DNA of 64,000 nucleotides, taken from Rodentolepis nana (lineage: Eukaryota > Platyhelminthes > Cestoda > Cyclophyllidea > Hymenolepididae). The stretch spans positions 18,554 to 82,553 of the forward strand of contig UZAE01012034.1 in assembly GCA_900617975.1 (NCBI GenBank), given 5' to 3'. The notes beneath the pieces were generated by a model. It had not been told where the DNA came from. It saw nothing but the letters and a program-made list of their open reading frames with translations, and made no database searches. The position numbers and the translations under genes were made by a program. Below, piece after piece: positions 8,000 to 64,000 of this stretch (its first letter is position 1; every line of letters begins with the position of its first letter).

Positions 8000-9010
8000 A
8001 TAAATGAACGTTCAGGGGAGAACGGAATTTGCCCTAAATTATGCACTTAAACTTTTAGCAAAATGGTGCGACAACAATGGAGTGGTTATCAACACCTCGA
8101 AGGGCTTCCCGCTTTCTTTTCAGTTTCCCAATGTGTTTAGACAGGAACACTCTATAGTGTTTAATCTTGCCACGGGAAATAATTTTCTTAGCACATCTCA
8201 TCATAATATTTGTGCTATTGTTGCACAGTTTGTCAGGATGTCGGTCAAAGTTTATGGGACTTGCGTGAAGTTCGTTCTTTAAAAGGTTTGTGAATCTAGG
8301 CCAGTCGGCCTTCTTAAAGTTCTATTTTAGCTTATTTAACATTTTGGGTGTAATGCATTTGCTGCTCGTGGTAATTCTAGCAATGAATGGTTTGTGACCA
8401 GAACCAGGATCGCCAATTATTTTGTGATGTGTATGCTCGCTGATGTTGTTTGAAGCCAGGAGCAAGTCAGGGATTGTTCTGGTTCTATTGTAGTGCAGAT
8501 ATGTAACAGGATCCTCATCGCTGTAAATAAGTACTAGAGGGTTGCTGTTAAGCATGTCTTCGATTTCCTTTCCAGCTATGTTTATGTTCTTATACCTCCC
8601 TCTGGTGGAATGGGCGTTGAAGTCGCCTAGTACTACAGTTTTTGTGAGATGTTCAGATGATCGAAGTTGGGTCTCTTCTGGGGTGGATTATAGACCACGT
8701 ATAAATTGAAGTGATTTAGATATTTCCAAACATTTAGTCTGATTATTTCGCATATATCTTGCTTCGAACCCATACTCTTGATCAGATAGTAATGTGATGT
8801 GAGGCCTTCTTTTACTCCAGTCAAAATTCCACTTGGTACTTGCCGATCGTTAGGTAGGAGATATCAGGTGTAACCTGGGAATTAGTAGTATTTGAGTTTA
8901 TCATCCGTATGGTTAACTTCCATGATTGTGATCTTCTTGTCCTGTGACATCTCTCCAACATCCCACTAAAGGATCTTTAGAAGTTGTGATTCGCCCTGAC
9001 AAGAGTGATT
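8000..9010 (-). pseudogene. Decayed endonuclease domain of a non-LTR retrotransposon
   Basis: Broken minus-strand coding sequence of an apurinic-like endonuclease (EEP fold). Near 8960-8820 a remnant reads like LQWNVG...SQDKK with stops, then GVKEGLTSHYYLIKSMGS (8824 downward). The hallmark VVLGDFNAHSTRGRYKNI lies near 8640-8590. Next come TIPDLLLASNNIS and DPGSGHKPFIA (8500-8390), then FKKADWPRFTNLLKNELHAS (8320-8260). GDFNAHS and SGHKP contain the conserved Asp and His positions of this endonuclease family. In-frame stops (for example just after LNKLK at 8322) and frame changes show it is dead. No reverse transcriptase follows it on this strand, so it is a 5' fragment without the rest of the element. 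The LINE clade (Jockey/RTE/CR1-like) cannot be decided here. Confidence 0.75.
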
Positions 9011-10633
9011 TCTCTTATAGCTTCGTTTCAGGCTGATCATAATAGTTTGAAGTCAGCTGCCGAGTTATAGTCTTTTTTGCCGTATGAGCATAAGTTGTCC
9101 TGGGTACACCACGCGGAGGTAAGTCTAGTGCCCATCTCAAATGCTTCAACATTTAATTAGACTTCATTGTCACTAGCTGTCATTAATTTTATTCTCACAC
9201 TCACATGTGAATATGAAAGACCACTTGTGAGTGAGTTGTCGCTGCCGAAATTAGTGGTTAACTAGGCAAACAGTCAGGCAGACATTACTTATACAAGCCT
9301 GGGCAAGTCCACTTATTTTGCTAGAAAACAATATCCTTTTCTACCTTGAGTGCCTGTGGCTGCAATAAAGAGCGACTGAAAAGTCGTGATTGTGAAGCAT
9401 GGTTGAGAATCAGTTGACATGCGCTTAAAGTGCATGGCCTTAGCTAGAGGAAGTGACCTCAAGTATTAAATAGTTCTGCTAATTTTTCCGAGCGTCACCT
9501 AAGGTAGCACAGTACAGGTGCGCCTAAATGAATTTATCGGCTGGTTACAATTACCGACTCGCGTCAAGTATGTGCCTACTTTTCAACTTGCGGAACAGAA
9601 ATTGCAGAATTGGAATGCGGACAGGATGCACTTCAAGTAAGTCAGAAGCCGCAACCAGGGAAGCGGGAAAGTCAATTACACTGGCTAATTCGTGCTGTTC
9701 CCTGCGAATAGGAAGCTATCGCTCCTGACGATAATTAAGGGACTTCATCAAAATTTTGGAATTTATTATATGTGCGGAGGTCTCGAATTAATAAGAACGT
9801 TGTATTCTCTCTTGCATGTGGAACACTGATTGCTGATGACATTGTCCGGTAAAATGAGTGCAAACAGAGCATCCAAAACACAGTTCTCGCACCAGATAGA
9901 CATATTCGACTATTCTTAAGTAGATTGACATCAGGGTAGTGTGAGATAGGCTGAGAGATTTCTGCACGCCACACCTTCCAGGCTGTTCTACCTCATTCGA
10001 GATCTCATTAAACTGTCCCCTCCCCTTGTATTACGTTCTCCAAAACTCAAAACACATCACTTATTTAATTTGGCCATTGGGTATAGATTGTTTTTATGTA
10101 CCCTATCTCTACCTCGCCTTTGAAATGACAAAATTTGCTTCCTTTTTGTGACACATTCTCTGATCTGACACAAACTTATCCAGGAAAGTTCAATTTACAC
10201 CCTTGATGAGATATGTTATATAAGGCTGATTGAAGATGATCTTTTACAAAACCCCGAAAAGAGATAATTAGTGGCCTGGGTGACCTGATGTTTGAGTAGA
10301 ACTGCTAAGCTGCTTTAAAGAAATGACTTTTTTTCCTAATTAGCAAGTGAGACGAATTTGTGCTTTCGGTCCGTTGTTGATTTCTCGTCAATCCGATGTA
10401 CACTCGGGCCATGCCTAATTTAATCAAAATAGAACTTGATTTTAACATTCTAAACACAGAGAAATTGGAATACGTGCACTATCCGCATGTTTTCGTCCAA
10501 AATTGGGTGAGATATTTGCTTAAAATATGCATTTGCGTTTCTAATAAATCGAAAAAGTGGGCAAATACTACGTCAACTGTAAGGGAAAAGGAATACGGAA
10601 CATTATGAGGACATCGGCCACAGAATCAACGAT
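9011..10633. other. Intergenic repeat-zone DNA, nothing recognised
   Basis: The open frames at 9528-9728 (+) and 9735-9974 (-) show no family motifs, signal peptide or splice structure that I can support. It separates the endonuclease fragment from the RNase H fragment, so the two are not one intact element. Confidence 0.4.
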
Positions 10634-11379
10634 GATATTTATTTTTTTATTTCAAATGGCATGCTTTATGATATTTATCATTAGCCCTTAAACTTTGACT
10701 TCAGCTTCCCCCAAGGGTGGGGGGTACATATATAGCAGTTAATTAATGGCAATTCATTAGCTGTCTTCTTGCTTCCCAGTATCTCTGGCTTTCCGCCGTT
10801 GCCTTTAGGGCTGGACACCGAATCAGGTGGGTCTTCTCCATTTCCTCATGTAAGTTACATAGAGGGCATATGGATTGAGTGTATACTCCCAATCTGTGAA
10901 GATGTTTTGCCAAGCAATCGTGTCCGGTACGTAGTCTAAACTCAGCAACGGCTTCGATTCTTGGCCAGTCGGCTATGTCGGAGAGTGCCACTGTCCACTG
11001 TTTCTCCTTTGTTCGAGCTTTAAGTTCGTTGCACCTTGAGGTCTGGAACTCTCTTCTGATTAAGGCCTTCATTTTGTGGAAAAACATCGGCCGGTCCATG
11101 CATTGCAAAATCGTTGTCCCCTTCTTAGCAAGTGCGTCAGCAAGCTCATTGCCTTTAATGCTACAGTGACCAGGACTCCATTGTAGGACCACTGTTTTGT
11201 TTTTCTCCCTCAGCAGCTCATAGAGTTTTCTACATTCCTTTATCTCAGCTGTTTTGGGTGGCTCTCTGTTTCCAATTGAGTTTATTGCTGACTGTGAGTC
11301 CGAAATTATCACCGCTTTGGTGAATTTCGTATCCAGGCAACATAATTGGCATAGTGTTATCCTAATGGCCTCGACCTAT
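10634..11379 (-). mobile_element. 3' end of a non-LTR retrotransposon with RNase H domain
   Basis: The open frame 11312-10743 with in-frame upstream VEAIRI (to about 11379) encodes an RNase H fold. Visible residues are Glu in VEAIR, Asp in ISDSQSAINSI, the block VLQWSPGHCSIKGNELADAL (last catalytic Asp) and AKKG. A C-terminal CPLCNLHEE..HLIRCP zinc-knuckle-like motif follows, typical of LINEs that carry RNase H. The stop is at 10743. A 3' UTR of about 100 bp runs down to an A/T-rich tail at 10655-10634. The piece is 5'-truncated: a stop or frame change lies just before VEAIR and the reverse transcriptase is missing. Its 3' UTR matches the ends of the SINE-like family at 18193, 34275, 40410 and 46358. 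Confidence 0.88.
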
Positions 11380-11668
11380 TGTGTCCCGCTGCTGCGTAGA
11401 AAGAGGTATCAACGATGATAGAGGTAAGGAAGTATACTTTCCACCCAGGACTTAGAAATGAATAACCTGGTTCCACGCGCCAATGAGGAAGGGCTGTTTG
11501 GATACACAAACCTTGTTCTCGACTTCTATTTGACAGAACCACTACCCTTCACCTTGTTCTCACTACTTAACTAGTTTGTCAACTTCGTTGGCTTTGCCAC
11601 GCTGTTCAACTGTCCTTCAGAGATAGTTGAAGAGCCTTCTATGTTCACGTTGCCGAAGAAGTCGATCC
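11380..11668. other. Spacer between LINE fragment and solo LTR
   Basis: Probably degraded RNase H upstream sequence merging into unassigned DNA. A frame ending in FYAAAGHN (minus) could be a frameshifted continuation of the LINE. Confidence 0.35.
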
Positions 11669-12094
11669 TGTAGCGGATTGCTACACTAGTAAAGCCTGAC
11701 TGACTCAGAAATCTCTATGACAGATCCTCCTACATCTAGCTAGACTCCCAGAACCAGCTAAGCTATGGCCCAGCTATAAAGGAAGCAGACGCGTAACACG
11801 GAGAATTCTCCTACATCTAGCTAGACTCCCAGAACCAGCTAAGCTATGGCCCAGCTATAAAGGAAGCAGACGCGTAACACGGAGCACGTTTATTCAGGAC
11901 GTATATTGCGGATCAAGTGTACACGCGGGGAGCTACTCGTGATCAGGATGGGGATTAGGTTAAACAAACAGAGGTTAATGATTGGTCACTGTTTGTATGG
12001 TCGCTGCACACAGAGTTGTACGACCGCACCTCCCAATCCTGGCGAGCAGACATGCAGGCTTACGATGATGCACACAGCGATAACGTGTCCCACA
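11669..12094 (+). mobile_element. Solo LTR-like element, copy A (426 bp)
   Basis: It begins TGTAGCGG and ends GTCCCACA, so it has TG...CA borders. The same 4 bases, ATCC, flank it at 11665-11668 and 12095-12098, as expected for a target-site duplication. A second copy with a different duplication lies at 60710-61076. Copy A carries an internal 81-bp tandem duplication (about 11728-11889) that doubles a TATAAA motif (11775-11780 and 11856-11861). No internal region, primer-binding site or coding sequence is attached, so I read it as a solo LTR. It could also be a terminal repeat of a TRIM-type element, a class reported from taeniid tapeworms; the family link is not tested. Orientation is nominal. 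Confidence 0.75.
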
Positions 12095-18192: not shown

Positions 18193-18526
18193 GGGGTGTG
18201 AGATGGACTTACCTCCTCGTGGTTCACCCTGGGCAACGTATAATCATACGGCAAAAAGTCTATAAACTGGCAGTTGACTTCTGACTTCAAACTACCATCA
18301 CCCCACTGTATGTCATATTCGACCCCTACTACAGTACTCATCTTACCCTTTCTGAGCCTTGGTGTCTGTCTGTTTCTTTTACATCTGTGAATCACTCTTC
18401 TGTTCTCCCTCTCGAATTCTTCTCACTTTGATGTTCCTCCCACCCCCCACCCCTCTGTGAAGCCCGAAGTCAACTATAGGGCTAATGATAACAATCAAAA
18501 CGCCTGCCATTTATTATAAATTAATA
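18193..18526 (+). mobile_element. SINE-like element, copy 1
   Basis: First of four similar copies. It starts GGGTGTGAGATGGACTTACC, has CACCCTGGGCAACGTATA near the 5' end, a CT-rich middle, then GAAGTCAACTA.AGGGCTAATGATAA, TGCCATTT and a TATAAATTAATAAA tail. Flanks share a 13-base repeat with one mismatch, AACTATTGACTGA (from 18179) and AACTATTGACCGA (18527-18539), read as a target-site duplication. It lies about 350 bp beyond the probable poly(A) signal of the POU4 gene. No protein is encoded. Confidence 0.82.
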
Positions 18527-19026
18527 AACTATTGACCGACAGAGTCAATACTTGGTCAATCTACTTTGATTACATTCAAAGCACAAAATAATTACTCAAA
18601 CTTCAGGCTACATAATTTTTCCATGGAAGCGCTCAATGTACTTCATCTTCTGTCATCTTCCCTCTTTCAGCTAGCAATACTTGACTATTTGGATGAGCAC
18701 GTTTTGCACCAACCCGCCTGTTGAGTGGGCCTGTTGAGCACTGACATCATACACCCTAAATCAGTTGACATGCATGTTAATCCCTGCGCCACAGCCATAA
18801 ACGAAATGGACTCGGACATTAATAAGAAAATGATATTCTATTGCATTTAAAGTAAATATACTGGTGCAGATGATTGTTTATTTACATAAATCAGGAGTTA
18901 AGGAGAGAGGGTAGTCCAAAGTGGGATCATTGCACATGCGTGTTGCCATATACTCAAGAAGTAGAAAAAAGGCCTTGATAAAAGCAGGGGTAGGGAAATA
19001 CAAAGGGCAACTCAATCCGCTTACAA
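18527..19026. other. 3' flank of POU4
   Basis: It holds the second half of the SINE-like target duplication (18527-18539) and the probable POU4 3' UTR. Nothing else recognised. Confidence 0.4.
18877..18882 (-). promoter_or_regulatory. Probable poly(A) signal of POU4
   Basis: AATAAA on the minus strand, about 145 bp beyond the POU4 stop codon. It is the first perfect hexamer I noticed downstream. Confidence 0.4.
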
Positions 19027-20802
19027 TCAGTTCACCTGATGTAGCAGTCCCACCGTGGAAAATTTCATTCTTTTCTGTTTCTGTCTCTGATTACAAAACC
19101 ACACTCTCACAACATTTTTCTTGAGATTCAATTTCTCCGCAATTTGGGCTATCTTCTCACTAGAAGGCCGTGGTTGGATTCCAAAAAAGGCTTCCAGAGA
19201 TCGTTTCTCTGGATCGGTTATTGAAGTGCGTTTTCGCTTTTTGTCATCCTCTTCGAGATCATAAGCACTTGGATTCTTTTGTCGTGCAGTCGCTTCTTGT
19301 TCAGCTTCATCTAACCAAGCTTGTAAGATAGGTTTCAAAGCCAACATATTGTTGTGACTGAGTGTGAGAGACTCGAACCGGCAAATTGTCGATTGAGAAA
19401 ATGAGCCCACTCCTGCAAGATTAAGACGTCCAAGAGCTTTTCCAACGTCCGCTTGAGTAACTCCTAACTTTATCCTTCTTTGCTTAAACCGCTCTGCAAA
19501 TGCTTCCAACTCCTGGGGGTCACAATCCACTGCTGGAACTGCCGCAGCCACAGATAATCGATGGGCTTCCGCTTTGTGACGGAAAACCACATCTCCAGCT
19601 GTTGAATACCTCGAAGGAGCGAAAAAGAAGTCCTTCGTATCTTGTACACCTGGGTAGCCTTGATAGACATTCGCTGCAATGGCACTTCCTGGCATTCGGT
19701 AGCTCCCATCTCCGTAAAATCGGTTCATTTCAAGTAATCTTGCATCATCATCACCCATCACTGTGCCGCCATTCCATTCTAGCTGGTTGATGACCGGAGG
19801 CCATAAACCAGAAGTGAGGTAGCGTGGTAAGGCTCGCATTGGATCAACCAGACACAAACCATTATGCAAATCACCTCCCCCCGATTCTGGATACACCGTA
19901 TTTTGATGTGAAGTCGCTGTAGATGGCACACAACAGCCAGGACATGAAGGAGCATCAGGAGCTGAATTGTTAGCAGTCTGGGAAAATGTGACTTCCTCAC
20001 TTATTTGAGGGGAAGAGGAGTTGCCTGTAGGTGCCACTGGGGCATCAAATTGTTGTTGTGGATAAAAGGCAGCTGGATTAGCAACTGGATTTGTGTTTGT
20101 GGTTGGATTTGCCTCAGTCCACTCTTGAAAATACTGTTGATGGTATCTATTTTGGTGGACTTGTTGTTGCTGAAATGCCACAACTGTTTTACTGGGAGAG
20201 TTGGACTGTGGAGGAGGGGTCTCAGACTTGGAAGCCTCACTTTGAGATCCATGAGCTGTTGGCCAGTTGGCATCATTACTGTAGGCTTCATTTGTAGGTT
20301 GTGAAACATCATTGGCATTTCGGGGATACCACTGCTGAACACTCCTGACCGCGTTTGTCTCCCAGTTGTTGAAATTTTGTTGTCGGTGTATCTGATGCGC
20401 ACTTAGATCTTGTTGTTCAGAGAGTTTCGCCACATTTTCTCCTTCAAAAGTCCCGTTAGATTCAAATTTTAGATTCGCCGCAGTCTGATATCCTTGATAT
20501 CCATGCCGGAAGACTTCTTCAACTTGTTTATTCGAATTTTCACTTCCTACTGTGTCCTCTACAGTTTGTACGAGTTTATAAAGTGGATTAGAAACTGATC
20601 GATAAATCTGATCAGCCAAGAATGAGTAACCCCGCATGAGATTTCCAGCCTGTTGCTGTTGATTCTGATTAGACTGATCGCTTGCTGAAGACTCAGAATA
20701 ATTTTCGCGTTGAGGTGGGTACATCGATTGTTGTTGGGTAGGAACAGGGTTTTTCGGAAAACTATCAACTCTTGGAACGTGTAGCGGTCCTTCTGTGGCC
20801 AT
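19027..20802 (-). CDS. POU4F: POU class IV (Brn3/unc-86 type) transcription factor
   Basis: A continuous 591-codon frame. The POU-specific domain spans about residues 426-503 (ELEAFAERFKQRRIKLGVTQ..VGKAL..STICRFESLTLSHNNM..LKPILQAWL). The homeodomain spans about 521-580 (KKRKRTSI.., ..KNVVRVWFCNQRQKQKRMK, with W568 and the recognition-helix C-N-Q). The wording of both domains, such as TSITDPEKRSLEAFF.IQPRPSSEKI, is diagnostic of class IV. The N-terminal 425 residues are Gln/Asn/Ser-rich and low in order; a POU-IV box is not obvious. The start is the first ATG after an in-frame TGA, in context AAGAATGG. Known of the family: neuronal and sensory specification, DNA binding in the nucleus. Unusual: no intron in the whole coding region. 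A 5' UTR exon or trans-spliced leader is possible, since an AG-rich acceptor-like site (TTTGACTAAAG) lies just upstream. Confidence 0.93.
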   Translation of the reverse strand: MATEGPLHVPRVDSFPKNPVPTQQQSMYPPQRENYSESSASDQSNQNQQQQAGNLMRGYSFLADQIYRSVSNPLYKLVQTVEDTVGSENSNKQVEEVFRHGYQGYQTAANLKFESNGTFEGENVAKLSEQQDLSAHQIHRQQNFNNWETNAVRSVQQWYPRNANDVSQPTNEAYSNDANWPTAHGSQSEASKSETPPPQSNSPSKTVVAFQQQQVHQNRYHQQYFQEWTEANPTTNTNPVANPAAFYPQQQFDAPVAPTGNSSSPQISEEVTFSQTANNSAPDAPSCPGCCVPSTATSHQNTVYPESGGGDLHNGLCLVDPMRALPRYLTSGLWPPVINQLEWNGGTVMGDDDARLLEMNRFYGDGSYRMPGSAIAANVYQGYPGVQDTKDFFFAPSRYSTAGDVVFRHKAEAHRLSVAAAVPAVDCDPQELEAFAERFKQRRIKLGVTQADVGKALGRLNLAGVGSFSQSTICRFESLTLSHNNMLALKPILQAWLDEAEQEATARQKNPSAYDLEEDDKKRKRTSITDPEKRSLEAFFGIQPRPSSEKIAQIAEKLNLKKNVVRVWFCNQRQKQKRMKFSTVGLLHQVN

Positions 20803-34100: not shown

Positions 34101-34274
34101 GTTGGTGTCCGGACGTTGAACTCACCGGCAAATTCATGGTTATTGCAATCATGCCAATTGATTCTTAATTGAACATTCTGCCTTGAAATTTTACGTCTTT
34201 CTAAATTAGAAATTACCCTACTCATGCAATTGTTTTAATTAGCTTAACATAAGCGCAGTTATATTTTAAATTGA
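31129..34274. other. Upstream region of the MATE gene; missing first exon(s) should lie here
   Basis: The acceptor TTGAATTTAG ends at 31129. A minus frame near 33240-33012 contains DEIAPLIRITST, vaguely like the start of MATE proteins, but no GT donor fits, so I do not assign it. G/C homopolymer-rich sequence lies at about 32500-32575. No other gene recognised. Confidence 0.4.
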
Positions 34275-34565
34275 GGTGTGCGATAGACTTGCCTCCACGT
34301 GGTGCACCCTGGGCAACGTATACCCATACGGCAAAAAAGTCTATAAACAGGCAGTTGACTTTTGACTTCAAACTTTCACAGTACTCAGTTCACCTTTTTT
34401 CTACCTATGTGTCTGTCTCTCTTACATTTTTGAATCACTCTTCTCTTCCCCACCCCTCTTGACTTTTTTCCCTTTGATGTTCCTCCTCCTCTCTGTGAAG
34501 CCTGAAGCCAACTAATGGGCTAATGATAACTATCAAAAGGCCTGCCATCTGCTATAAATAAATAA
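34275..34565 (+). mobile_element. SINE-like element, copy 2
   Basis: Same family as 18193-18526: GGTGTGCGATAGACTTGCC start, CACCCTGGGCAACGTATA, CT-rich middle, GGGCTAATGATAACTATC, TATAAATAAATA tail. Flanks ATATTTTAAATTGA (34261-34274) and ATATTTTTAATTTGA (34566-34580) look like a diverged target duplication. It lies about 390 bp beyond the CFAP43 poly(A) signal. Confidence 0.82.
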
Positions 34566-34580
34566 ATATTTTTAATTTGA

Positions 34581-35014: not shown

Positions 35015-38000
35015 CTAAAACTGGTCTTGAATTGAGGGAGAGACACTCCCGCGCAACTGTTCCAATTCTTCACAGAGGGTCTCCAGTTCAGATTTTTGAA
35101 GTTGAGTAAGCGTCTCTAAATTTACCTTCCGAAGAAGCGACTTATAACAGATTTCCGCTCTCAGAACGTCGCCAGTAGCATGAGCTAAAGAGGATAATGG
35201 GGCATTTCAAAATCATAAATTATAACTGTCACGGTCGATTTTAAAAGGATCCATCGGATGACCTCTACTGAACTCTTTAAGGAGAAGTGAATAAATTGCG
35301 ATAGCAGTGCCATCCTTGTATGACTAATAAGATCTGAAAATCATAGAAGGGCCGCATTCTAACACCTGAACTTTGAATCATCAGGACATGACAAAGCAAA
35401 CAAGAAAATGAGATAAAGGTTGCTAGCTGAAATCCTGTTTCTACCCAAGCCATCAATTATTGGACTATTCTACTACGTTTGTACCTCCTAATGGCTGTTA
35501 GAAGATAGAAATGAATAAAAGTCACTTAATCAACCAGTCAATTAAATCGATCGGAAAATAGATACTAACTTTCACCGACATGAACTTACACAGAATACCA
35601 GGGATCAATTTCTGAAAAATAGACATTGAAATATTATAAATCGCCAAGCAATTTGTACTTCTTAAGAGAAAGTGAAAATAGTAATGCTTTTAGAAAATAA
35701 CAGAGGCTATGCGATATTCCTCCATTTCGAAGTCTCCTTCCATCACATACACGCCATTTTTGGTACTTCGAGCGTTCGATATAATATCTCACTAATTAAA
35801 CGTGTAAAGGTTTTTTGTCTTGACATAGGTAATATTAATGAAATAACTGCCATTCCATGGATAAAAATAAAAATTTCAAACTATTAGGTGGGCAACTAAG
35901 TCATTGCCGTTTTTGTTGACAGATTCACTCTATACTTTCTTTTGTTTTGTTAACGTGGCCAGAGCATCTAACCTATTTTTTTTTCTTACTGTATGGGCTT
36001 CTAGGTTAATTAGTAAAAAAATTTTTTTGTTTACTTCTTTAGTTTTGTTTTTATCCCAATTTAAAAATGAAAGAACAGGACGTGCACTTCTGACACATTT
36101 TATTGTATTACTTCCGAAAAGGCAAGAACGCATCGCAAGCACAAAAGAAGTTATGTGCCGTATATGGAGATGAAGCCTTAAAAGAAAGGCAGTGTCGAAA
36201 TTGGTTTGAAAGATTTCGTTCCGGTGATTTTTCACCGAAAAATTCACAACGATCTGGCCGCCCAGTCGAAGTGGATGAAACCCATATCAAGGCCATTATC
36301 GATTCAAATCGTCACAGCACAACACGAGATATTGCAGAGAAGCTCAATGTGTCGCATACATGCATTGAAAAAAAATGAAAAACCCTTGGTTATGTCAAGA
36401 AACTTGATTTATGGATCCCTCACCAGTTAAAGGAAATTCATTTGACGCAACGGATTAGCATCTGTGATTCGCCGCTACTGAAACGCAATGAGAATGATTC
36501 ATTTCTGAAGAACCTAGTTACTGGCGGCGAAAAGTGGATAGTTTATAACAATGTTACTCGCAAGAGATCATGGGTGAAGCAAGATCAACCAGCCCAAACA
36601 GTATCAAAAGCAGAGATTCACCAAGAAAGGATTATGCTGTCAGTGTGGTGGGATCACAAAGGAATTTCGTATTTTGAACTCATGCCGCAGAACCAAACGA
36701 TGATGTCGGATCACACCTAATTCAGTTTTTTAATAGCAAAGACCAGACATTTTACGAACGGGGAATTTGTACTCTGCCAGAAGGATGGAAAAAGGTCATC
36801 GACAAGAACGGCCAATATCTAATTGAATAAAGTTATATTTTTAAGCAAAAATTGCGAATTTGCCTTCTTATTTGAAATCGGCAATGACTTAGTTGCCCAC
36901 CTAATATATAAATTCTACTAACAGGCCTATATGTAAGGTATAATCCCTTCGAAGTATTATGGAGGAAAGTATAATCGTGGAGGCGGGGAAATCAGTTGTT
37001 AATAAAGTGATAGCTGCTATTGACAGAATGAGTGCTGATAAACAATCCGACTGTGATTTGACCTCCAACATTCAACGCGGTTAATCGGTGTCAACCAATA
37101 GATAAAGCGCCTTCCTTTCATCCATTCACTAAATTTTGACTAACACTGGTCCAGCCATTATTTCATAAATCTTTTGGCGATGTATGTGATTCAATAACGG
37201 CTTTTATACAACTTCTATCAAAATGCTAGCAAATGGTAAGCCAATTAATTTTATATACGTTATCAAGCCTTGTTTAGGTCAGAAGGCAGAAGTGGGTGAT
37301 GAAAAGGAAGTAACTAATATTTGCAAAAAATGTCTCAAAACTCAATATGATTTACGACATGTGAATTGGTGAGGAGCCATTTTAATAAATGACTTCAGTG
37401 TAGAGGGCATAGTTACTCTTTATTATTTATAGAGAACTTACGCGTCTGCTCATATATGCTCCTAACTCGATTCACATCCACATTCATTTGCTCCAAATCA
37501 AGGACCAACTTCTCATTTTCCTTCTTTATTTTCTTTGCCTGTTTCTCGCTATAATATCTTATCTTTTCTTCTATCTTGGCCATATTCTTATTGTGATTCT
37601 AAACGGTATCAGGTAAAGCAGAACGCTGAACATTGTTACTTACAACTTTCAGTTGGGCATAGGTACGCTCCGAATCCTTCATCTCCTCTGCAATCATGCT
37701 GTCGTAATTTGAACTACGGAGATACTGTCAAAAAATGGAAATGTATGAAAATACATTCAGAAGAGATTAAAGCAGAAATTTACGCGTTGAATTTCTCGAG
37801 AGATGGTAAAGTTAGTTATCTCCTTCTGTTTTTCTAAAAGGTCTTCATAACGCATCAGCATCTCCCGCAGGTCCCTTAAATTAATGAGCGATAAATATTG
37901 GTTGAATTAGCCCTACCATTCTAACATCTTGAACCGTCTTTTGTAGGCTTTGATGAGCTCCATATGGTCAATCTTCTCATTGCTCAATTGAACTACTCGA

Positions 38001-41000
38001 ACATTAAGATCCTCAATTTGCTTCCGATTGATAAATAGACAGCTATTGAAATCTTCAACAAGAGCTCCGGGTTCAACACAAACCTCATCTTGACCTTGTG
38101 GCATGATAATGCTAATGACAACGTTGGTCATTGCTTTGTAGGTCTTGAGTTTCAGTTCACTTAGAGCCTTTTCAATTTCATTTAATTCTGCTACAGCATC
38201 TTCTATCTCCTGTTCTATGCGCTTAAGAGAAACAAAGAAGACGTTTTTAACGCTGAGCATAACTTCAATGTGGCAACAAATTGTCAGGTCATATAGATGA
38301 TCGCTTACTTCGAAATGGTATAAAAATCTACCCTCTCAAAATATCATTTTAAATCGTTACCATTTCCATCTCATTTGTTTCCTTGTAATTCACAACTGTT
38401 TGCATTTGTTTAGATAATTGTTATGAAAGTATATTTTAGGCCATAAGTCAATTCTAGATGGCTACACACCGTAAACTAGTCATTAACCAATCTCAAAACA
38501 CTTTAATAAATAGGTATTTCTAATTTGAAGATTTCTTTGTCTGCTTTAATCAAATATATTCCAAACCTCATTGCTTTTCAACTTATGTGCTTTACTCTTG
38601 TATTATGTGATCGTTTTGACCTACAAGCAATGTCTTGGTAATGGAGAAGATATAGTTTGAATGATTTGTCGAAAAATTCGACAAAATTTCTATCTGCACC
38701 TCTGAACGCTTAAGTGCAAGCATTTATAAGCATTGTTTACAATTCCTTTCGAATTGTAAATCTGGAACATAATTGATGATCCGAGTTATTGGACAGGGTG
38801 ACTAAATATCAGAACGGCAACTATTTCTGGCATGTTTACAAACCTAAAAGGGACAATATATTACTATATTTCTTTCATGAAGTTTTTTATCTTATGCAAA
38901 TTTTATGCAACATTTTCAATTTATGCAAATTCTGCAAAATTGTGTACTTTGAAATTTTACTTGTAAATTGTCCTTTTTGTATTTTTTGAATTTACTTATG
39001 AAAAGGGATCAAAATTAGTAAAAACACATTGTATTATGAACTAATAATTAAATATTCCACAGTTCTCTTATTTGGTTATGTTCAGAACCTACCTGAAGGA
39101 AATCCTTGGCGATTTCGAGCTTATAATCTGTCATTTTCAGTTCCATTTCTTTCGAGGCCTTCTTCATACGAGCTTTGTAAAGTCGGTTCCAAATTGCAGG
39201 ACTAATGTTATATTCGGGCAACTTGTTGGCCTCATCAAATTCATTCAATGCCCTTTGCATGGCCGCCCATTCGGCTTCTAATGATCGGTTTTGGATCACT
39301 GCTTGCTTGTAGGGGTACGCAGACTCCGGAGAGCTGATGGTTTTACCCATTTCATTTACCTCATCACCCAATTGGATATCCAAATTCCTAAAACATCAAA
39401 TTCAAAGTAAAAGATGTCTCAAGTACGCATAAGCCTGTTTGCCTCAAGTGTCACTCCTTTTATCATACTTCGTCCTGTTTCATACGCACCCCTTTGGAAG
39501 TGTATGGCAAGCTCCTCAATCCCTAATTTTGGGCACCCACTGTCACTCTCCAACCCTCAACTCATTTCTAATGATTCAACGAAATTCACTTGACCCGTAA
39601 GGGGAGAGCTCTAAACCAACCTCGATCACATTTTTATTTTCGATTTTCTGCTGAGATTAATGACATTTTACCCAGGACTTACTTAGGACGTCTTCTGAAA
39701 GCCTTGAGGAGAATGTCATAAAGCTGTCCATGAACGTCGTGGAAGTCTTTACGGAAATTTTTTTCCAACATGTGATCTTCCACATTTATCAACTCCATAT
39801 TTTCTTGAAGTCCTTCAATCAAGTTCTTGGTCGTTTGGATGATATTGTGCAACTGCAAGTAAAAAACATTTATCATTGGAAAAATGTCGCACTTTTGAAA
39901 TGAGCACTATATGTTCAAATTCTGAGTTCATACCTTTTCGATCCTCTGTTTAAGGTCATCCTTCCTCTGTCCATAATACTTTTCTTCGTCCTGTAACTCT
40001 CTGGCCTGTAGAACAGACGCTTTTAACTTCCACACTTGGATTTCTTCCATTTTCAGTGCCACCTCGTATTTTATATAGGACTTGAATAGATTTATAACCT
40101 CTTCATCAACAGTGGACTTTATCTCTTCAATGGCTGTCTCATTCTTCTTTATTTCTGTTTCTAGAGACTAAAACAAGACAGATTTAGTATAATTCAAAAC
40201 AAAAAAATCATCTTTACAGCGTTTAGATTTTGTCTCGGGCTAATCAATTCTTGCATGTTGTCCCTAAATAGGCCACCAAACTTATTCATATGCGAATGCG
40301 AATGGCTGGTGACAGGTTGGCAGTTATCAAGGGCAAACCTATTAACCCTCTGAAGGTGTTTTGATCTCCGGACATCGGTAAAGTGAAGACAGTTTATATT
40401 TGCATATAAGGGGTGTGCGATAGACTTACCTCCACGTGGTGCATCCTGGGCAACGTATACTCATACGCAAAAAAGTCTATTAACCGGCAGTTGACATCTG
40501 TGTGTCATATTCGACCACTTCCACAGCACTCATCTTACCCTTTCTCTGCCTTTGTGTCTGTCTCTTTTGCATCTTTAAACACTCTTCTGTCTCAACCCCA
40601 TCTCGACCTTTTCCCCTTTGATGTTTCTTCCCCTCTGTGAAGCCTGAAGTCAACTAAAGGGCCAATGATAACTATCAAAACGCTTTCCATTTGCTATGTA
40701 TAAATATTTGCATATAATACCTTCGGCTAATATTGTTTATTGAGTTAATTCCATCACCCCCCTCCCTCTAGAGATATCATATGAGCAGATGAGTCATAGA
40801 AACAAAAACTAGTTGCTCTGCTTGAGAATTCACTAACAATATATCTTATAGCTTGTTCAATATTGTAATTAGACTTCAGATCTGTACAATTCGATCTCTA
40901 TGTTTTGAATGGACTCACTTTACGATATCTCGCGCGTTCTTCTTCTAATTTTTTGCAAGCCTGGAGATAATTTCGGTAGATTGTAAGCTCTTCTAACGTC

Positions 41001-44000: not shown

Positions 44001-47000
44001 CTCTAGGATGAAAATATTTTTTGTGAACAATTTTAATTTAGTCTACTTTATATACATCATACCTAATTTCACAAAGCCAAATAAAGTTACTCCCCAATAT
44101 AGGGGAGAGGGGAGGGGGGGGGGGCAGTTTAGAGAGAATTCAAACCAAGGTCAAATGAAAATCGATTCTAAATTATCACCAACATAACAGATACTAAGAT
44201 TACTATTATAAATGAAATTGAAAAGAACATCAGACGTTTCCAATGGAAATATCCGAAACATAAAGATAATGAAAGGCAATAAACGGTTCAAGTCAATCAG
44301 CATGGTCGGTATATTTCTTCACACTATATGGATCAATGAGGATCATATTCACGACCTCAAGAGGGACCTGTTAACAGTTGGACTTTACGCCGCTACCACA
44401 ACAAGAATAAGAGCTCCTAATTACTAGCTAGTGGAAATTATAATTGGCCGCAACTTCCAATACTTTCAATGATCGAATGAGGACTCATGTCTTCAATGAT
44501 TAATTGTGACGAACACACAACCATTGCCTTCTATGAGTGCTCTAATTACCCAAGTTAGTAATACCTTTGCTCTGTCATTAAATTTTGCATGGGTTCCATA
44601 TGACCATGTTAGTTCTGTGAATGGATTACTTACTTACTTGTGGATTCTACTATATTATAGAACTTTTGTACCCACCAAGATTCAGGAATAACTGTTTGGT
44701 GTTCTAGTTAATTTTATCGTTTAGTTCGCTTATTTAGCCTACAAAATCAAAAATTTTTCTTTGGCACATGCCAAAAAACTTTTTAATCGACAAAATTTTG
44801 TAATTAACTTACGCCAAATTTATCGCACAAATTGAACCATCAGACTTTATGGCTGCAATGGTGCTGAAATCCATTGTCACTGCAACTTGAATTGGGAGAT
44901 CAGTGTATTCCGTAAGCGGAAAATGTTTGGTTAACATTTTTGCCTGCAAGAGGTAAGTGAACAAGCATCAAGCTAGTAAGTGGTGGTAATGAAATAAATT
45001 TGTGTGGCGGTCATAATCGTGTTATCTGTGTAGTAGGATTGCTTCTTGCTTTCCATTTTAACATTTGCCACTACCCTGAAAGAGGTCATCTTTTGCGTTA
45101 AAATCGCTAACGTAAATTCTGGTCTGCATCGGTTTTCACTGCTTCATTTCCTATGGACTCATTGCTTTTTTATCCATTTAAACTGTTCCTCACCTTACTA
45201 GGACACGCTTCCGCTCTTATTACAGTCAAATGGAAGTTAGCAGATTGCTCCTTCTATCTTTTTTAACAATTAGCATATCAAGCATTTGTGAGAGGCTATA
45301 CTGCGACTCCATGGAAAATCAATACATTCTATCGCTCATATACTCTAAATTGTAAGTAAAAAAGAATTATTATTTAAGACTGAATAGCATGGTGCTATAC
45401 GTCCGCTCAGATTGGTGGTATCCAAGTCAAAAATGGTGCACCTTGCTAATCTCCCCAAGAGACACGGCGGTCATATTTTTAGATCTTCCACAGTGTAGCT
45501 CAAATCACATTAAATATTCTCAACCTTCTTTCGTAGTAATAAGTTTCGGCACTTCCAAACAAGTTTGGCATATTTTTTTAATTGCCAACACTTCTGCGTC
45601 ACTAGAGCGAATGCGCGTGAAATGGCACTGTCTGTATTTACAGTGCTTTGTCAAATTGGTAATAATCCGCATTTTGTCCATAATTTATGGTATAGAGCAT
45701 GTTAGAGAAAAGCCACTTTTGTTTATGAACTCTCTGCTAAAACAATGTGAAACAGCTTTCCTAACACGCAATCTTCTCCTAGCTTGGGAAGATTAGGCTT
45801 AGCACTCTTGTGGCGCGGAGTGAAGAGGTTTTCAACCGTCTCAGTCTTAATACTGTGGACATTCTAGTTAGTAGCTAGTATGTACTCAATAATAACGAAT
45901 TTCAATTGTAATTTATAAAAGAGAACGAGTGTCCACCAAGGCGTTCATGACTAAAATGTGTAGATCTTAAGGAAAACTGTCATGAGAAGATTTTTAATAA
46001 TCATGGGATAGAAATTCAAGTCATCCTATTTGAAAATACTGCGTAATTGTTAACACTCTTGGTTATACATTGTCTTAAGATAGTGATTAGAGATGATCGC
46101 GGCGCCTTTTTAAGTTGTACGTCTTAATCCAAAGAAATTGGACCTAGCTATAAGATGCCTCTCCAAAAGAAAATTTGAAAATTTTGAACAATTATTCAAA
46201 ATTGCTGTTTGTTGTTGAACGTTTTCTATTATCTTCTGTTTACTTAAATCATGTTGGTCTGCAAAATGAACTACGGTAACACTTTGAGGCGATCTTGGTA
46301 CCGATCTTGTCGGCTTCTAACTATGTCTGGGGTGGGGTGGGGGGGGGGGGGGGGGGGTGCGCGATAGACCTACCTCCCATTTGGTACACACTGGGCAACG
46401 TATACTTATATGGCAAAAAAGGTCTATTGATCGGCAGTTGACTTCTGACTTCAAACTACTATGGCCCTACCATTTGACATATTTGACTCCTTTCACAGTA
46501 CTCATCTTACCTTTGTTATGCCTCTGTGTCTGTCTGTCTCTTTTGCATTTATGAATCACTCTTCCGTTCCCCCTCTCGACTTTTTGTCACTTTAATGTTC
46601 CTTCCCCTCTCTGTGAAGCCCCGAAGTCAGCTCCAGGGCTAATGATAACTATCAAAACGCCTGCCATTTGATATAAATAAATGTCTTGTGGGGGGGGGGG
46701 GGGGGGGGGGAAGGGGGTAATTTCAGGTCGAAAAGGATTTTCATTATGAAGGTTAAAAGTTATTTTCTCTTGTCCTCAAAGAAACTCACCGAATCGTTCA
46801 GATTAAGAATATATGCTATTCCAGATTGTGAAGTTACGATAACATAGCCAGGAATGTGGGTTGAAAGTAGACTCATAGAAGAAGATACAAACGAGACACT
46901 CGTTGTCTGATAGTCAGCCAACTCTGGGATTGCACGTTTCACCTAAAAGAGACGTATTTAAATCAGAAAATTTAAAAAGGAATTTTAGATTTGTAATGCA

Positions 47001-58775: not shown

Positions 58776-58777
58776 TA

Positions 58778-60065
58778 TTAGGTTGGCAATAAGTCATTGC
58801 CGATTTCAAATAAGAAGGCAAATTCGGAATTTTTGCTTAAAAATATAACTTTATTCAATTAGATATTGGCCGTTCTTGTCGATGACCTTTTTCCATCCTT
58901 CTGGCAGAGTACAAATTCCCCGTTCGTAAAATGTCTGGTCTTTGCTATTAAAAAACTGAATTAGGTGTGATCCGACATCATCCGCGTTGTTAAAAATTTG
59001 AACATTTAAAGAGTTTTGCATGGAACGAAACAAATGGTAATCCGAAGGCGCAAGGTCAGGGCTATATGGTGGGTGCGACAAAACATCCCAACCCAGTTCC
59101 AATAATTTTGGCCGAGTAACCAAAGATGTGTGGGGCCTTGGGTTATCATGATGGAAAACAACACCCTTCCGATTTGATAATGTCGGCCGCTTATCTTCAA
59201 TTGCATCCTTCAGTTTTTCGAGTTCTTCAACATACACATTTGAATTTATCGTTTGGTTCTGCGGCATGAGTTCAAAATACAAAATTCCTTTGTGATCCCA
59301 CCACACTGAAAGCATAATCTTTTTTTGGTGAATCTCTGCTTTTGATACTGTTTGGGCTGGTTGATCTTGCTTCACCCATGATCTCTTGCGAGTAACATTG
59401 TTATAAACTATCCACTTTTCGCCGCCAGTAACTAGGTTCTTCAGAAATGGATCATTCTCATTGCGTTTCAGTAGCGGCGAATCACAGATGCTAATCCGTT
59501 GCGTCAAATGAATTTCCTTTAACTGGTGAGGGATCCATAAATCAAGTTTCTTGACATAACCAAGGGTTTTTCATTTTTTTTCAATGCATGTATGCGACAC
59601 ATTGAGCTTCTCTGCAATATCTCGTGTTGTGCTGTGACGATTTGAATCGATAATGGCCTTGATATGGGTTTCATCCACTTCGACTGGGCGGCCAGATCGT
59701 TGTGAATTTTTCAGTGAAAAATCACCGGAACGAAATCTTTCAAACCAATTTCGACACTGCCTTTCTTTTAAGGCTTCATCTCCATATACGGCACATAACT
59801 TCTTTTGTGCTTGCGATGCGTTCTTGCCTTTTCGGAAGTAATACAATAAAATGTGTCAGAAGTGCACGTCCTGTTCTTTCATTTTTAAATTGGGATAAAA
59901 ACAAAACTAAAGAAGTAAACAAAAAAATTTTTTTACTAATTAACCTAGAAGCCCATACAGTAAGAAAAAAATATGGGTTAGATGCTCTGGCCACGTTAAC
60001 AAAACAAAAGAAAGTATAGAGTGAATCTGTCAGTAAAAACGCCAATGACTTAGTTGCCAACCCAA
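58778..60065 (-). mobile_element. Mariner transposon copy B, full length (1,288 bp)
   Basis: TA duplications at 58776-58777 and 60066-60067. The inverted ends begin TTAGGTTGGCAATAAGTC (left) and TTGGGTTGGCAACTAAGTC (right, complement). It is near-identical to copy A where they overlap, except that it keeps the central transposase region. Confidence 0.95.
58851..59882 (-). pseudogene. Mariner transposase, copy B, inactivated
   Basis: One frame from ATG 59882 to TAA 58851, interrupted by the same two TGA codons as copy A (after codon 8 and after HTCIEKK). The helix-turn-helix region and VEVDETHIKAII linker are present. TGGEKW replaces TGDEKW, so the first Asp of the DD34D triad is missing, while VVFHHDNPRPHTS and PPYSPDLAPSDYHLF keep the other two. 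The family resembles insect-type mariners with the RISICDS..KRNE motif. It cannot make a working enzyme. Confidence 0.93.
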
Positions 60066-60067
60066 TA

Positions 60068-60705
60068 GTTAGTGCTCATCATAAATGCTTATCGTATTCT
60101 CTTTTAATTATGCATTTTGTGAAAATTCTATTCATGCTCAGGAAGCCACGTTTCTCCACAAACGGCAGGCATTTTAAATCGGAGTCTGAATTTGGGAGGA
60201 AAGACGTGCCATAAAGTTTATTCAATGCGTTTTGCAATACTAACTTGCAGAATTTGAAAGGAAAGCAAAAGAATTTTGTGAAATTTTAATCATGCATTAC
60301 AATAAAGAAGGAAACTACAGTACTTAAAATAGTAGCTTCATAAAAAACAAAGAAATTAATTTATAGTTTGCTATGAAAATCGTAGCCATGGCATTAAGAA
60401 TGAGCTATATAAATTCAAGAATAGAAAAAACGGAATTGAAATTTCTAACAGACATCTTAAAATAAACATCCATACTAAATAAAGAATAGATAAATTAATC
60501 TCCAAGTTGAAAGAGTTAAAAAGAAGGTGCTGTGCTCGATTAATTTTGCACAAAAAAGGGAAAAATATTGCCAAATTCAAGCGCCTTCCTTTGCTTTGAA
60601 TGGAAGATTTGGAGGCAAAGCTATTCAAAAACTTGGAAATTTTATTCTTCTGGTCTATTGAGAAATCAGAGCCACCTTCCTAGTCAGTACAAGTCGAAAT
60701 TGATA
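60068..60705. other. Spacer, nothing recognised
   Basis: AT-rich DNA between mariner copy B and the second solo LTR. The minus frame 60628-60371 has no identifiable motif. Confidence 0.4.
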
Positions 60706-60709
60706 GACA

Positions 60710-61076
60710 TGCAGCGGATTGCTACGCTAGTAAAGCCTGACTGACTCAGAAATCTCTATGGCAGATTCCCTAAGTAAAGCCTGACTGACTCAGAAATCTC
60801 TATGGCAGATTCTCCTACATCTAGCTAGACTCCCAGAACCAGCTAAGCTATAGCCCAGCTATAAAGGAAACAGGCGTGTAGTACGGAGAACGTTTATCCA
60901 GTGAGTATATTGTGGATAAAGTGTACACGCATGGAGCTACTCATGATCAGAATGGAGGATTAGGTTAAACAAACAGAGGTTAATGATTGGTCACTATTTT
61001 TACGGTGGCACCTCCCAATCTTGGCGTGCAGGCATGCGATGACGTGATGACGCACAAAGCGATAACGTGTCCCACA
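60710..61076 (+). mobile_element. Solo LTR-like element, copy B (367 bp)
   Basis: Begins TGCAGCGGATTGCTACGC and ends GTCCCACA, same order as copy A at 11669. It is flanked by a 4-base repeat GACA (60706-60709 and 61077-61080), different from the ATCC of copy A, so the two inserted independently. It has one TATAAA (60860-60865). A 44-bp segment starting TAAAGCCTGACTGACTC is tandemly duplicated (60731 and 60775), whereas copy A duplicates a different 81-bp segment. No internal region. Confidence 0.75.
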
Positions 61077-61080
61077 GACA

Positions 61081-63820
61081 TCAAATCCCAAGATGGAAAT
61101 TCCAAAATATTCGAAAGGGAGTGAACCGAAACTTCAATTCCGAAGAACAAAACATCGAAGCCCAAGCGTCCATTTGTGCCCAAAACTACGTTTCGAGTAG
61201 ATCTATTAATCAACGATCTATTTGAATAAATTGATCAGTTCAATAATTCTTAAAAAACACAGAACTATAGTGAATAAGATCAACCTTGTGACTTGCAAAG
61301 TTACAGTGATTTGGAAGTAAACAAAAGTGGATTCCGTACTCGTCTATTTTGGCATTGCTAAAATGCTAGTAAGCCCAATTGCTACCCCGAGGTACTGTTA
61401 ACATCCTTTTGATTCAGATCCGGAGGGAAACTTTTTATAGAAAGAACGTAAGTAAAGTTTGAAGGTCAGGGCATTATTTAGACAGCGAGAGGTTTATCTT
61501 GGACGTTAATCTAGATATCTGGTTGTCTCTTTCCTATTGCCAAACTTAAACGCATATTCAAAGAGCAAATAACATGTCTGAAGCATGAATGCTTGAAAAA
61601 AGTGATTTGCGTTGCCCTCTTTCTGCATGGCACGTAGAAGAAGGCATATACCTTTTCAAGCAAAATTAGAATGAATTTAATTTGTCGCCTCAGTAACGCT
61701 TTCAATAACCCTCGATCTTGAAATATGTGATTGGTCTGATTTTCGAGTTGTCTCCTGCCGAGGAGATGCGTTCCAACGTTTATGTATTCCACAATTCATC
61801 GACATGTTTTAAAAGTAAAATTTTAAATGTTAGCACAACTTTCGCCACTAATTTAGAAAATAAAAGAAAATAGAGCAAGAAACCGTAAAATTTGAGAAAA
61901 ATGTGTAATGTTCAAGTATGTGCAAGCACACGTAAAAAGAATGAAGCTGAATAGAGTTTAAATGGAAAATCGGAATGGAAAATTGCATGCATGAGTTGAA
62001 TTTATCTTGCATCAAAGTTTTACTCTTTTAGAACCTACCTGAAGTAGAAAATACTTCTAATATTGGGACCATCAACTGTTTGGCAAACGGATGCGAAGGC
62101 AAAGCTGTGGGGAAAATATTTTTGAATGGATGGGGAGACTTAGAGTTCCAGAGCTGTTGCCAATTCTGAGAATGGGGATCTGATACTCGAGTACCCCTTT
62201 CATTTATAAGACTTTAGTCTATCATAAATCGGACAATGTAAGTCATTGTTTATTGTTGTGGCCGAAAAGTAGTGACCTAGTGGCGAATGCAATGGTCTTG
62301 TTTTCCTTTCCACGAGCATTCGCTAAGAGTTTGCCAGGTTTCAGTTCACAACGATTTTACTCGAATTCATTGAGGTGGGTATTTATGCAGGTAGTGACGG
62401 AAACACAGGGGTGTCTTGCTGTTTTAACAATTACTTACTGGTCAACTAATGGGAACATGGCATCAGGATTCGTTGGGCTATTTGCTCTCTAACAAACTCC
62501 TTCACCATTTTTGAATTCGAACATCGGGTTGCCGAATTTAATAGTATACATTATGAACATTTGAATACTTGAAAATCTTTTTGTACGGAGTTAGCTGCCA
62601 ATCCCTTTGAGTACTGCGGGTAGTTGGATCGTGAATTCTAAAATATACTGCAAGTAAGATGGAATTAAAGCTCAATTCAGAACAATAACTACTCAAATTC
62701 GACTAGTGTGAAATCAAGTTATACCGATAAACCATCCATTCAGTCGGTATGCCTAGTAAAGTGGTAACCTGGCATTAGATCTCCCAGTAAGGCTACATAA
62801 GTTGTCCAATCAAACTGGTTTTGAAATAACCCCAATAAATTTATGTCTAGTGGGAAGCATGAACCTTTCCCAAAAAGATAAAAACCTAAGCTAATTGGAA
62901 CAGTAAAGGAGGGACTGAATAAGAAAGGAGTATTCGATGAGGCAGCCATCAAATTTATCATTTAAGGAAGGTCATCTAAAGGAATGATAATGATAAACGA
63001 AGATATAAACCACGTTTAATAATTTGAGGAGACCAATATAAGATCATTGAGTTCAGAAGCAAATAGATAGTAAAGAGCTAGTGGAATTGGCCAGTTTTTC
63101 CGGATAAGCTAATCGAATCCTCTTAAAAATGTTTCCTTTACCTTATCCAACCTTTTTACTCATATTTTGCTTAAATTTCGACTAATTTGAGGCGAAAATA
63201 GCATTGGGAAAAGATGATGTAGTAAGCCAGGGCGTATAAAATAAGGAAGAAAAGACAGGGTTGCTTGAGACGAAGCATAAAATGCCAATCGATCAATTTG
63301 AATTTGACAGATGGATGTTGGGCCAGCCGAGCCTTAACAACCTTCACTCAAGGACTACTTAATTGGCTTATCCCCATTAATTAAAATAAACCACGCGATG
63401 ACAATTAAAGGGAAACTTGAGGTCAAGGTAGTATTAGGTACTTCAAGTACTATAGTGAGCTTGATTGCACTTCAAGCGTCACTGTGAGGACGCGATACCT
63501 AGGTCCGAGAGATTAGTGAATGTTGTAGATAAAATGTTGGAAAAGTATAGATTGTAAAGCGGTTGATGATAAAATTAGGTCGGGTCAAAATATTGCTCAA
63601 TGACATATAGCGCAGGAAAATATAAAGTAGGATTATCGACAAGTTATCAACGGAAAGGTGATAGAAGTGCCCAACACTCGATGATTGCCTAGATACCGAA
63701 AGCGAGAAAGTCAAATGATTCTCACACAAAGAGCAGTCGTGGACACTTCAAACCGTATGCGATCCAGGCGTTCGATAAGAAATGTTGCAAGTTTCAACAA
63801 GTGCTCTACTTCAAGCTAAC
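61081..63820. other. Intergenic DNA without recognised genes
   Basis: Frames at 61792-61511 (-), 62253-62492 (+) and 62961-62740 (-) lack family motifs or convincing splice partners. Confidence 0.4.
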
Positions 63821-63822
63821 TA

Positions 63823-64000
63823 TTGGGTGGGCAACTAAGTCATTGGCGTTTTTGTTGACAGATACTTTGTTTTGTTAACGTGGCCAGAGCATCTAACCTA
63901 TATTTTTTTCTTACTGTATGGGCTTCTAGGTTAATTAGTAAAAAATTTTTTTGTTTACTTCTTTAGTTTTGTTTTTATCCCAATTTAAAAATGAAAGAAC
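63823..64000 (+). mobile_element. Mariner transposon copy C, cut by the window edge
   Basis: A TA (63821-63822) precedes TTGGGTGGGCAACTAAGTC, then the same 5' UTR as copies A and B, up to the start codon ATGAAAGAAC at the last bases. It lacks about 17 bp of the 5' UTR present in copy A. The transposase state is unknown. Confidence 0.88.

Follow-up and report, generated by a model that had tools for sequence, protein, structure and literature searches.

The window, by which we mean the entire 64-kb stretch of Rodentolepis nana DNA that was analyzed, carries on its minus strand a 5'-truncated LINE insertion (10638-11407), which was delimited by its PF00075 match and its target-site duplication and consists of the RNase H C-terminal part of the reading frame and the 3' UTR. 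The open part of this frame, including the stop, encodes 189 aa of the C-terminal RNase H part (10743-11312) and contains a CxxC..H..C zinc-like motif that was recognized by eye; about 28 nt at the 5' edge of the fragment fall, also by eye, outside the assignment to reading frame and 3' UTR. The fragment is bounded by a perfect 13-bp duplication, an exact 13-mer found at 11408-11420 (5' copy) and at 10625-10637 (3' copy). Because the duplication covers 10625-10637, the element proper ends at 10638. We also identified a decayed LINE 5' end on the minus strand by blastn and alignment (8885-9138, with the 8885 edge set by eye), which comprises a predicted HDV-like ribozyme (9064-9138), the 5' UTR and the start of the endonuclease frame. 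This 5' end, which was absent from the original prediction, matches the heads of the SINE-like copies described below with blastn E-values of 1e-6 to 1e-17.

The original prediction started from the 3' end of the LINE fragment, whose sequence blocks were said to recur in the same order in a SINE-like family of the window. All of the blocks it named are indeed present in the window sequence at that place on the minus strand, and they occur in the same order in the SINE-like copies. A local blastn search with 10600-10900 gave four plus-strand matches (E 2.6e-12 to 5.7e-8), at 34497-34569 (80% of 75), 18442-18528 (76% of 89), 46635-46682 (88% of 48) and 40639-40706 (77% of 70). Together with the alignment of consensus 3' ends that had been proposed as a check, this places the common tail at 10638-10725 of the minus strand. 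The consensuses were derived from 40 LINE tails and 63 SINE tails after duplicates and short or N-bearing tails had been dropped. Outside the A/T end, 58 of their 72 aligned columns agree, so that the similarity is not an effect of A/T-rich ends. Aligned without the A/T tail, they scored 71, whereas 5000 dinucleotide shuffles averaged 13.8 and did not exceed 29 (z about 25).

The repeat finder puts the four short copies of the window, all on the plus strand, in one group. The copy at 18193-18528, which was recognized by the Rfam HDV models and as a repeat, has a head (18193-18264), a center (about 18291-18441) and the tail (18442-18528), and it is flanked by a 13-nt target-site duplication with one mismatch. 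Head and tail are likewise present in the repeat copies at 34273-34566, which has a 12-nt duplication with one mismatch, and at 46354-46685, where the duplicated flank is mostly a run of G. Of all places in the window, only the copy at 40410-40703 satisfies the strict descriptor of an HDV double pseudoknot that is described below; it lies within a perfect 14-nt duplication (40396-40409, with an exact 3' copy at 40704-40717 by hand count). The short element is about 315-335 nt long, non-coding, and has a center of about 150 nt between head and tail; in the loci that we collected, the common center occupies this position in 68 of its 80 occurrences.

Several other features were observed in the window. 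Two element copies with 98% identity, at 35879-36906 and, inverted, at 58776-60070, contain a Transposase_1 (mariner-type) gene, and a third, partial copy (about 90%) is found at 63816-64000. A dispersed repeat occurs at 11669-12094 and 60710-61076 (75% alike), the former including an 81-bp tandem duplication at 11724-11884. An uninterrupted open frame of 591 aa with POU and homeodomain is present on the minus strand at 19027-20802.

We then determined how abundant both families are in the assembly, which contains 107,105,815 bases in 4,701 contigs. A 35-mer of the SINE-type head, with up to two mismatches, gave 10,570 matches and its reversed-pattern control none; these are matches and not whole copies, and they include a few LINE heads, given that those with an ATTCA loop fit the pattern with one mismatch. 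With up to one mismatch, the SINE-type tail was found 2,878 times and the LINE-type tail 940 times, while both reversed-pattern controls gave no match. A count of 4,390 for the LINE head was rejected as a measure of LINE abundance because many SINE copies fit that pattern at two mismatches, and the tail counts were preferred. The short-family matches are spread over many contigs, and the flanks of the copies are mutually unrelated. Rfam found no rRNA family in the window, and taken together these results do not fit the 28S rDNA insertion characteristic of R2 SIDEs (short internally deleted elements).

The tails of the two families are related and yet distinguishable. We sorted 131 tail occurrences by their upstream context, using 101 loci fetched with queries from the LINE and SINE-like families, plus the window, and keeping overlapping loci. 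The LINE reading frame preceded 45 of them, the SINE-like center 74, and neither of the two 12; the last class includes L046 and L108, which are one place (C2850). In every case with an assigned context, the best match was the tail subtype of that context (45/45 and 74/74), and none of the 45 LINE-context tails was exactly of the SINE type. The LINE fragment at 10638-11407 thus differs from the SINE family in its tail subtype. Among 25 SINE tails that were by-catch, in the sense that the query was not centered on them, 22 have a head, three of these with a displaced or damaged start.

The original prediction had further suggested folding the shared tail in search of a conserved stem-loop, and such a structure receives little support. 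Both tails can form a small hairpin: TGAT/ATCA with an outer GGGCT/AGCCT stem is paired in 83.7% of 520 cells, as compared with 33-54% when the partners are slid. However, among the 52 distinct rows, two of its 10 pairs are disrupted in 35 and 37 rows, respectively, and no covariation was detected. Single-tail folding was little or no better than that of shuffled sequences (z from -1.0 to +1.2 for five window tails), and the consensus tails reached z values of -2.2 (LINE) and -1.2 (SINE). The LINE tail also has a C5/G5 hairpin that is absent from the SINE tail. Given folding near the shuffle level and no covariation, a strong conserved stem-loop was set aside.

Next, we examined the LINE in the whole genome. 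A query from its RNase H part matched in all 150 of the best candidates scored, out of 3,289, with 82-100% identity. When a 321-base query from the LINE 5' end was used, the best 40 of 2,098 candidates were scored, and the other 39 matches all reach query base 297-299. These were found with a query that contained both the head and the endonuclease start; in the copies retrieved in this way, the two adjoin, with no ORF1 between them. The LINE copy from which this query was taken (L073, minus strand) shows a SINE-like head followed directly by the endonuclease start. In eight of 10 LINE 5' ends that we read, an ATG is located at nt 100-105, and the frame continues without interruption through the whole piece in two of the 10, whereas stops or shifts break it in the remaining ones. 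Reverse transcriptase and RNase H of the LINE were recognized by Pfam. The endonuclease start was assigned by eye; a Pfam search of its 107-aa piece gave no match, and PF14529 is carried by some relatives of the LINE protein.

Among R. nana proteins, those most similar to the protein of a LINE copy show 88% identity over 53% of the query (rank 1) and 85% over 50% (rank 2), and another shows 97% over 32%. Matches in H. microstoma are weaker than those in Rodentolepis (Hymenolepis) nana. The nearest named relatives outside the hymenolepids are from the psyllid Diaphorina citri (41% over 63%) and from spiders (about 42-45%), and several unnamed metagenome proteins score between the hymenolepid and the named outside relatives. 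No flatworm outside the hymenolepids occurs among the closest named relatives, and horizontal transfer of the LINE is one possibility that this distribution may suggest.

The head of the short family is the part that most changes its interpretation. The SINE and LINE consensus heads share 83 of 97 positions, a length that covers nearly the whole LINE 5' UTR. In a 501-base search, the first 72 bases of the 18193 copy matched RF02682 with 39.1 bits (E 8.3e-6) and RF00094 with 34.1 bits (E 2.9e-3), both matches beginning at the first base of the element. All six LINE 5' ends searched matched the same models, with E-values of 7.8e-5 to 5e-4 for RF02682 and 0.0055 to 0.14 for RF00094. These scores are under the curated cut-offs of 44 and 50 bits (39.1 and 34.1 bits for the SINE, at most 37.6 and 36.1 bits for the LINE), and a search of the window at the gathering cut-off listed nothing. 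In the LINE head, RF02682 starts two bases inside, and the P1 pairs there are non-standard, so that the model and the P1 register are offset by two bases. A tRNA or known small-RNA origin of the SINE head was also considered and set aside, since neither a tRNA nor an Rfam family at the gathering cut-off was found in the window.

The structure itself was examined with a structure-only descriptor written for this test (a P1 of 7 bp, P2, P3, P4 and the catalytic C). Both typed consensus heads satisfy it, and none of the 3000 shuffles made from each does; within the 64-kb window only the 40410 copy gave a hit, and three shuffled windows gave none. Many single copies of the head are decayed, and in the window the strict descriptor is failed by the LINE head and by all SINE heads except the 40410 copy. 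To a total of 113 head matches we applied two filters, the first removing 21 (duplicates, those with no P2 strand and those too short) and the second 12 of the remaining 92 (rearranged or truncated). The 80 aligned heads that were left (25 LINE, 50 SINE and five unclassified short ones) have standard pairs in 94.4% of 1816 pair cells, versus 32-57% when the partners are slid, and the catalytic place is a C in 76 of the 80. Covariation is weak, with double changes in three pairs, a number reached by 119 of 500 shuffles and by most of the slid versions, which have two to nine such pairs; this is expected because the copies are young. Judged by structure, the heads of the short family and of the LINE are thus predicted to be an HDV-like ribozyme with a nested double pseudoknot, for which self-cleavage is predicted.

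Variation of the head by repetition was also observed. At L102 (C2883), L103 (C2020) and L104 (C2813), the 3' half of the ribozyme (P1' to J4/2) is repeated several times head to tail within the LINE 5' end, with the same repeat layout and different flanks in L102 and L103 and a shorter form in L104. A junction-specific pattern located four copies of this LINE variant in the genome. The copies at L003, L020, L035 and L050, most of them of the SINE type, contain comparable partial repeats of this half.

The 5' junctions agree with what would be predicted for a self-cleaved 5' end, in that the elements start at G1. Bases 1-4 of the heads are 84-96% G, and conservation begins at the first G of the ribozyme; at position -1, the most frequent base accounts for at most 34% in the 50 SINE heads, and T reaches 56% in the 25 LINE heads. 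A T-rich stretch is present at -12 to -8. It should be noted that this statistic is sharpened by the selection of the heads, which were anchored on the P2 strand and did not include rearranged or truncated ones. We also searched the flanks of 60 head-plus-tail copies, several of them decayed, from 66 rows not classed as LINE. A duplicated flank with a score of at least 8 was found in 35 of the 60, as compared with 0.5% of 1200 mismatched control pairings, and 22 of the 35 duplications are 12-14 nt long. Short copies thus insert by a route of the type of target-primed reverse transcription (TPRT), as their target-site duplications demonstrate.

What, then, is the origin of the short family? Because its head as well as its tail is that of the LINE, the short element can be regarded as a LINE derivative that has lost its interior. 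Deletion by itself does not seem to account for its form, because the center found no counterpart in the available LINE sequence: against seven LINE-derived stretches, with part of the LINE reading N in several loci, the SINE center gave no match except a 16-nt one on the opposite strand (E 0.07). A strong center match in L044 was rejected as LINE sequence and taken for a neighboring SINE copy, whose head is found at L044:27. We thus propose, with a probability of roughly 85%, that the short family is a SIDE composed of the LINE 5' UTR and a 3' UTR tail with a replacement center of about 150 nt, and not a tRNA-type SINE. Given the common tail and the TPRT-type insertions, its copies would best be read as mobilized in trans by the RNase H LINE family.

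Traces of the route by which such a SIDE may have arisen are visible in the genome. A pattern between both tail subtypes was found at 98 places with up to two mismatches, and its control at none. Four of these places were inspected; at three of them the tail follows an RNase H frame that is 60-81% identical to that of the window, and the fourth is L108. Since the best 150 RNase H matches are 82-100% identical, the LINE copies at these three places are more diverged and probably older. Over the block GAAGTC..CATTTG, L107 and L108 have a tail that agrees with the SINE tail at 44 of 48 positions without a gap; its agreement with that of the recent LINE is 46 of 51, and the SINE and recent LINE tails agree at 43 of 50. 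A more diverged, probably older lineage of this same LINE appears to be a likelier source of the short family than the recent LINE. L108 itself (minus strand), by reading, consists of LINE parts only, namely the predicted ribozyme, the 5' UTR, 50 endonuclease codons, the last codons and the 3' UTR, with 358 nt from G1 to the GCCATTTG block. It has the form that the birth of a SIDE would be expected to take, and a deletion after insertion could also have produced it.

These observations have to be weighed against other explanations. The original prediction regarded the short family as a SINE mobilized by its partner LINE, which in the classical sense would mean an unrelated head derived from a small RNA and a grafted LINE tail. 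The tail sharing and the target-site duplications would fit this equally well, and the center of about 150 nt without a LINE match could be taken in its favor. However, the head agrees with the LINE 5' UTR consensus at 83 of 97 positions, and neither a tRNA nor an Rfam family at the gathering cut-off was found in the window; because the head is common to the LINE, we consider this explanation largely refuted and very improbable. Mobilization by the partner LINE is the part of the prediction that retains its support, from the common tail and the TPRT-type insertions, whereas "SINE" in the usual sense no longer describes an element whose head is also that of the LINE. The reverse course, in which a short element with a ribozyme head existed first and supplied the LINE with its 5' end, is hardly more probable. 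SINE-type heads are the more numerous, and similarity alone gives no direction, but the intermediate LINE tails and L108 show that a deletion route is present in the genome.

It might also be argued that the shared ends are merely decayed LINE fragments that resulted from independent deletions, with no propagating family behind them. L073 and L108 can be cited as individual internally deleted LINEs. This is nevertheless refuted by the common center, which lies between head and tail in most of its occurrences in the collected loci and has distinct flanks, the copies having duplicated flanks of their own; we regard it as extremely improbable. More serious is the possibility that the short family was mobilized by a LINE lineage other than that of the fragment at 10638-11407, perhaps one that is extinct or unseen. 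The complete sorting of the tail subtypes by context would be in line with this, as would the closer agreement of the L107/L108 block with the SINE tail than of the recent LINE block with it. On the other hand, all LINE-context tails belong to one family and no other LINE with this tail was seen, in loci fetched with the family's own queries, and the intermediate tails resemble the tail of the recent LINE about as closely as that of the SINE. We consider this explanation a real though rather unlikely one, and mobilization by the RNase H LINE family the preferable reading.

If the short family is indeed a SIDE of this LINE, its copies may propagate as follows. The element would be transcribed from its own or a neighboring promoter, and the predicted ribozyme would then cut the RNA just before its first G, leaving an exact 5' end, as the structure and the 5' junctions suggest. 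The endonuclease and reverse transcriptase of the LINE may recognize the common tail, and the RNA would be integrated by target-primed reverse transcription, a type of route that the target-site duplications demonstrate. Full-length insertions would start at G1 again. The ribozyme would thus let a read-through copy regain the correct 5' end, and this could help to explain the thousands of copies. Under these assumptions, the R. nana genome would carry thousands of potential self-cleaving sites in host transcripts, and the few LINE copies with tandem half-repeats of the ribozyme (four found) would look like a head that evolves by gaining repeats. In addition, a dispersed and abundant SIDE, LINE lineages, intermediate tails and a form made of LINE parts only are found in a single assembly, which makes the birth of a SIDE testable. 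The pair should also allow the requirements of the LINE protein in its RNA to be tested, and the short family offers a large natural set of variants of one predicted HDV-like ribozyme.

Finally, we compared the R. nana pair with known systems. SINE/LINE pairs of the stringent type have a 3' tail in common with a co-resident LINE, with a repeat-rich end. The present pair resembles them in its common tail and differs in that the head is common too; as far as tested, that head is not a derivative of tRNA, 5S or 7SL RNA, unlike those of stringent-type SINEs. Animal retrozymes are non-autonomous non-LTR elements with hammerhead ribozymes (PMC7229834); the short family is likewise a non-autonomous animal retroelement with a self-cleaving ribozyme, here a predicted one, but its head is HDV-like.

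HDV-ribozyme-headed short elements have been described from trypanosomatids (PMC4035085) and from Drosophila rDNA (PMC3414825). The Drosophila R2 SIDE joins a 5' HDV-like ribozyme to the 3' end of a LINE and is held to move by TPRT in trans (PMC3414825), and the short family has the same composition, with a predicted ribozyme, and the same type of insertion. R2 SIDEs are found in rDNA and are rare (PMC3414825), whereas the R. nana family belongs to an RNase H LINE and has thousands of dispersed matches. Among non-LTR elements in general, SIDEs are said to be rare, and TbRIME and Ag-Sponge are also named in the Discussion of the same report (PMC3414825). In the H. microstoma genome, LINEs make up 1%, and 14.8% of the repetitive sequence is unclassified (PMC7653826). 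A search of titles and the beginnings of abstracts, with few subscription journals and preprints among them, revealed no earlier report of a LINE and short element pair with an HDV-like ribozyme head in tapeworms or other flatworms.

The closest parallel is provided by the trypanosomatid L1Tc/NARTc and ingi/RIME/SIDER systems, in which the short derivatives of a LINE have the LINE ends and, like the LINE itself, a 5' HDV-like ribozyme (Pr77) (PMC4035085). The L1Tc/ingi LINE encodes endonuclease, reverse transcriptase and RNase H, and its short derivatives are abundant (PMC4035085). In R. nana, too, an RNase H LINE and an abundant short form share a predicted ribozyme head and their ends; the host in this case is a tapeworm, and the short form differs in its center of about 150 nt without a LINE match. 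SIDER2 has two Pr77 signatures in tandem (PMC4035085), a doubling with which the ribozyme-half repeats of the R. nana LINE may be compared. We would thus give an even chance to the view that the R. nana pair is an animal counterpart of L1Tc/NARTc, in which a tapeworm short element was amplified to about 10,000 head-bearing copies and a ribozyme, not a pol III promoter, defines the 5' end. Ribozyme-headed SIDEs themselves are already known; the R. nana pair is set apart by its tapeworm host, the dispersal and abundance of the short family, its center, and a likely origin that is visible in the genome.
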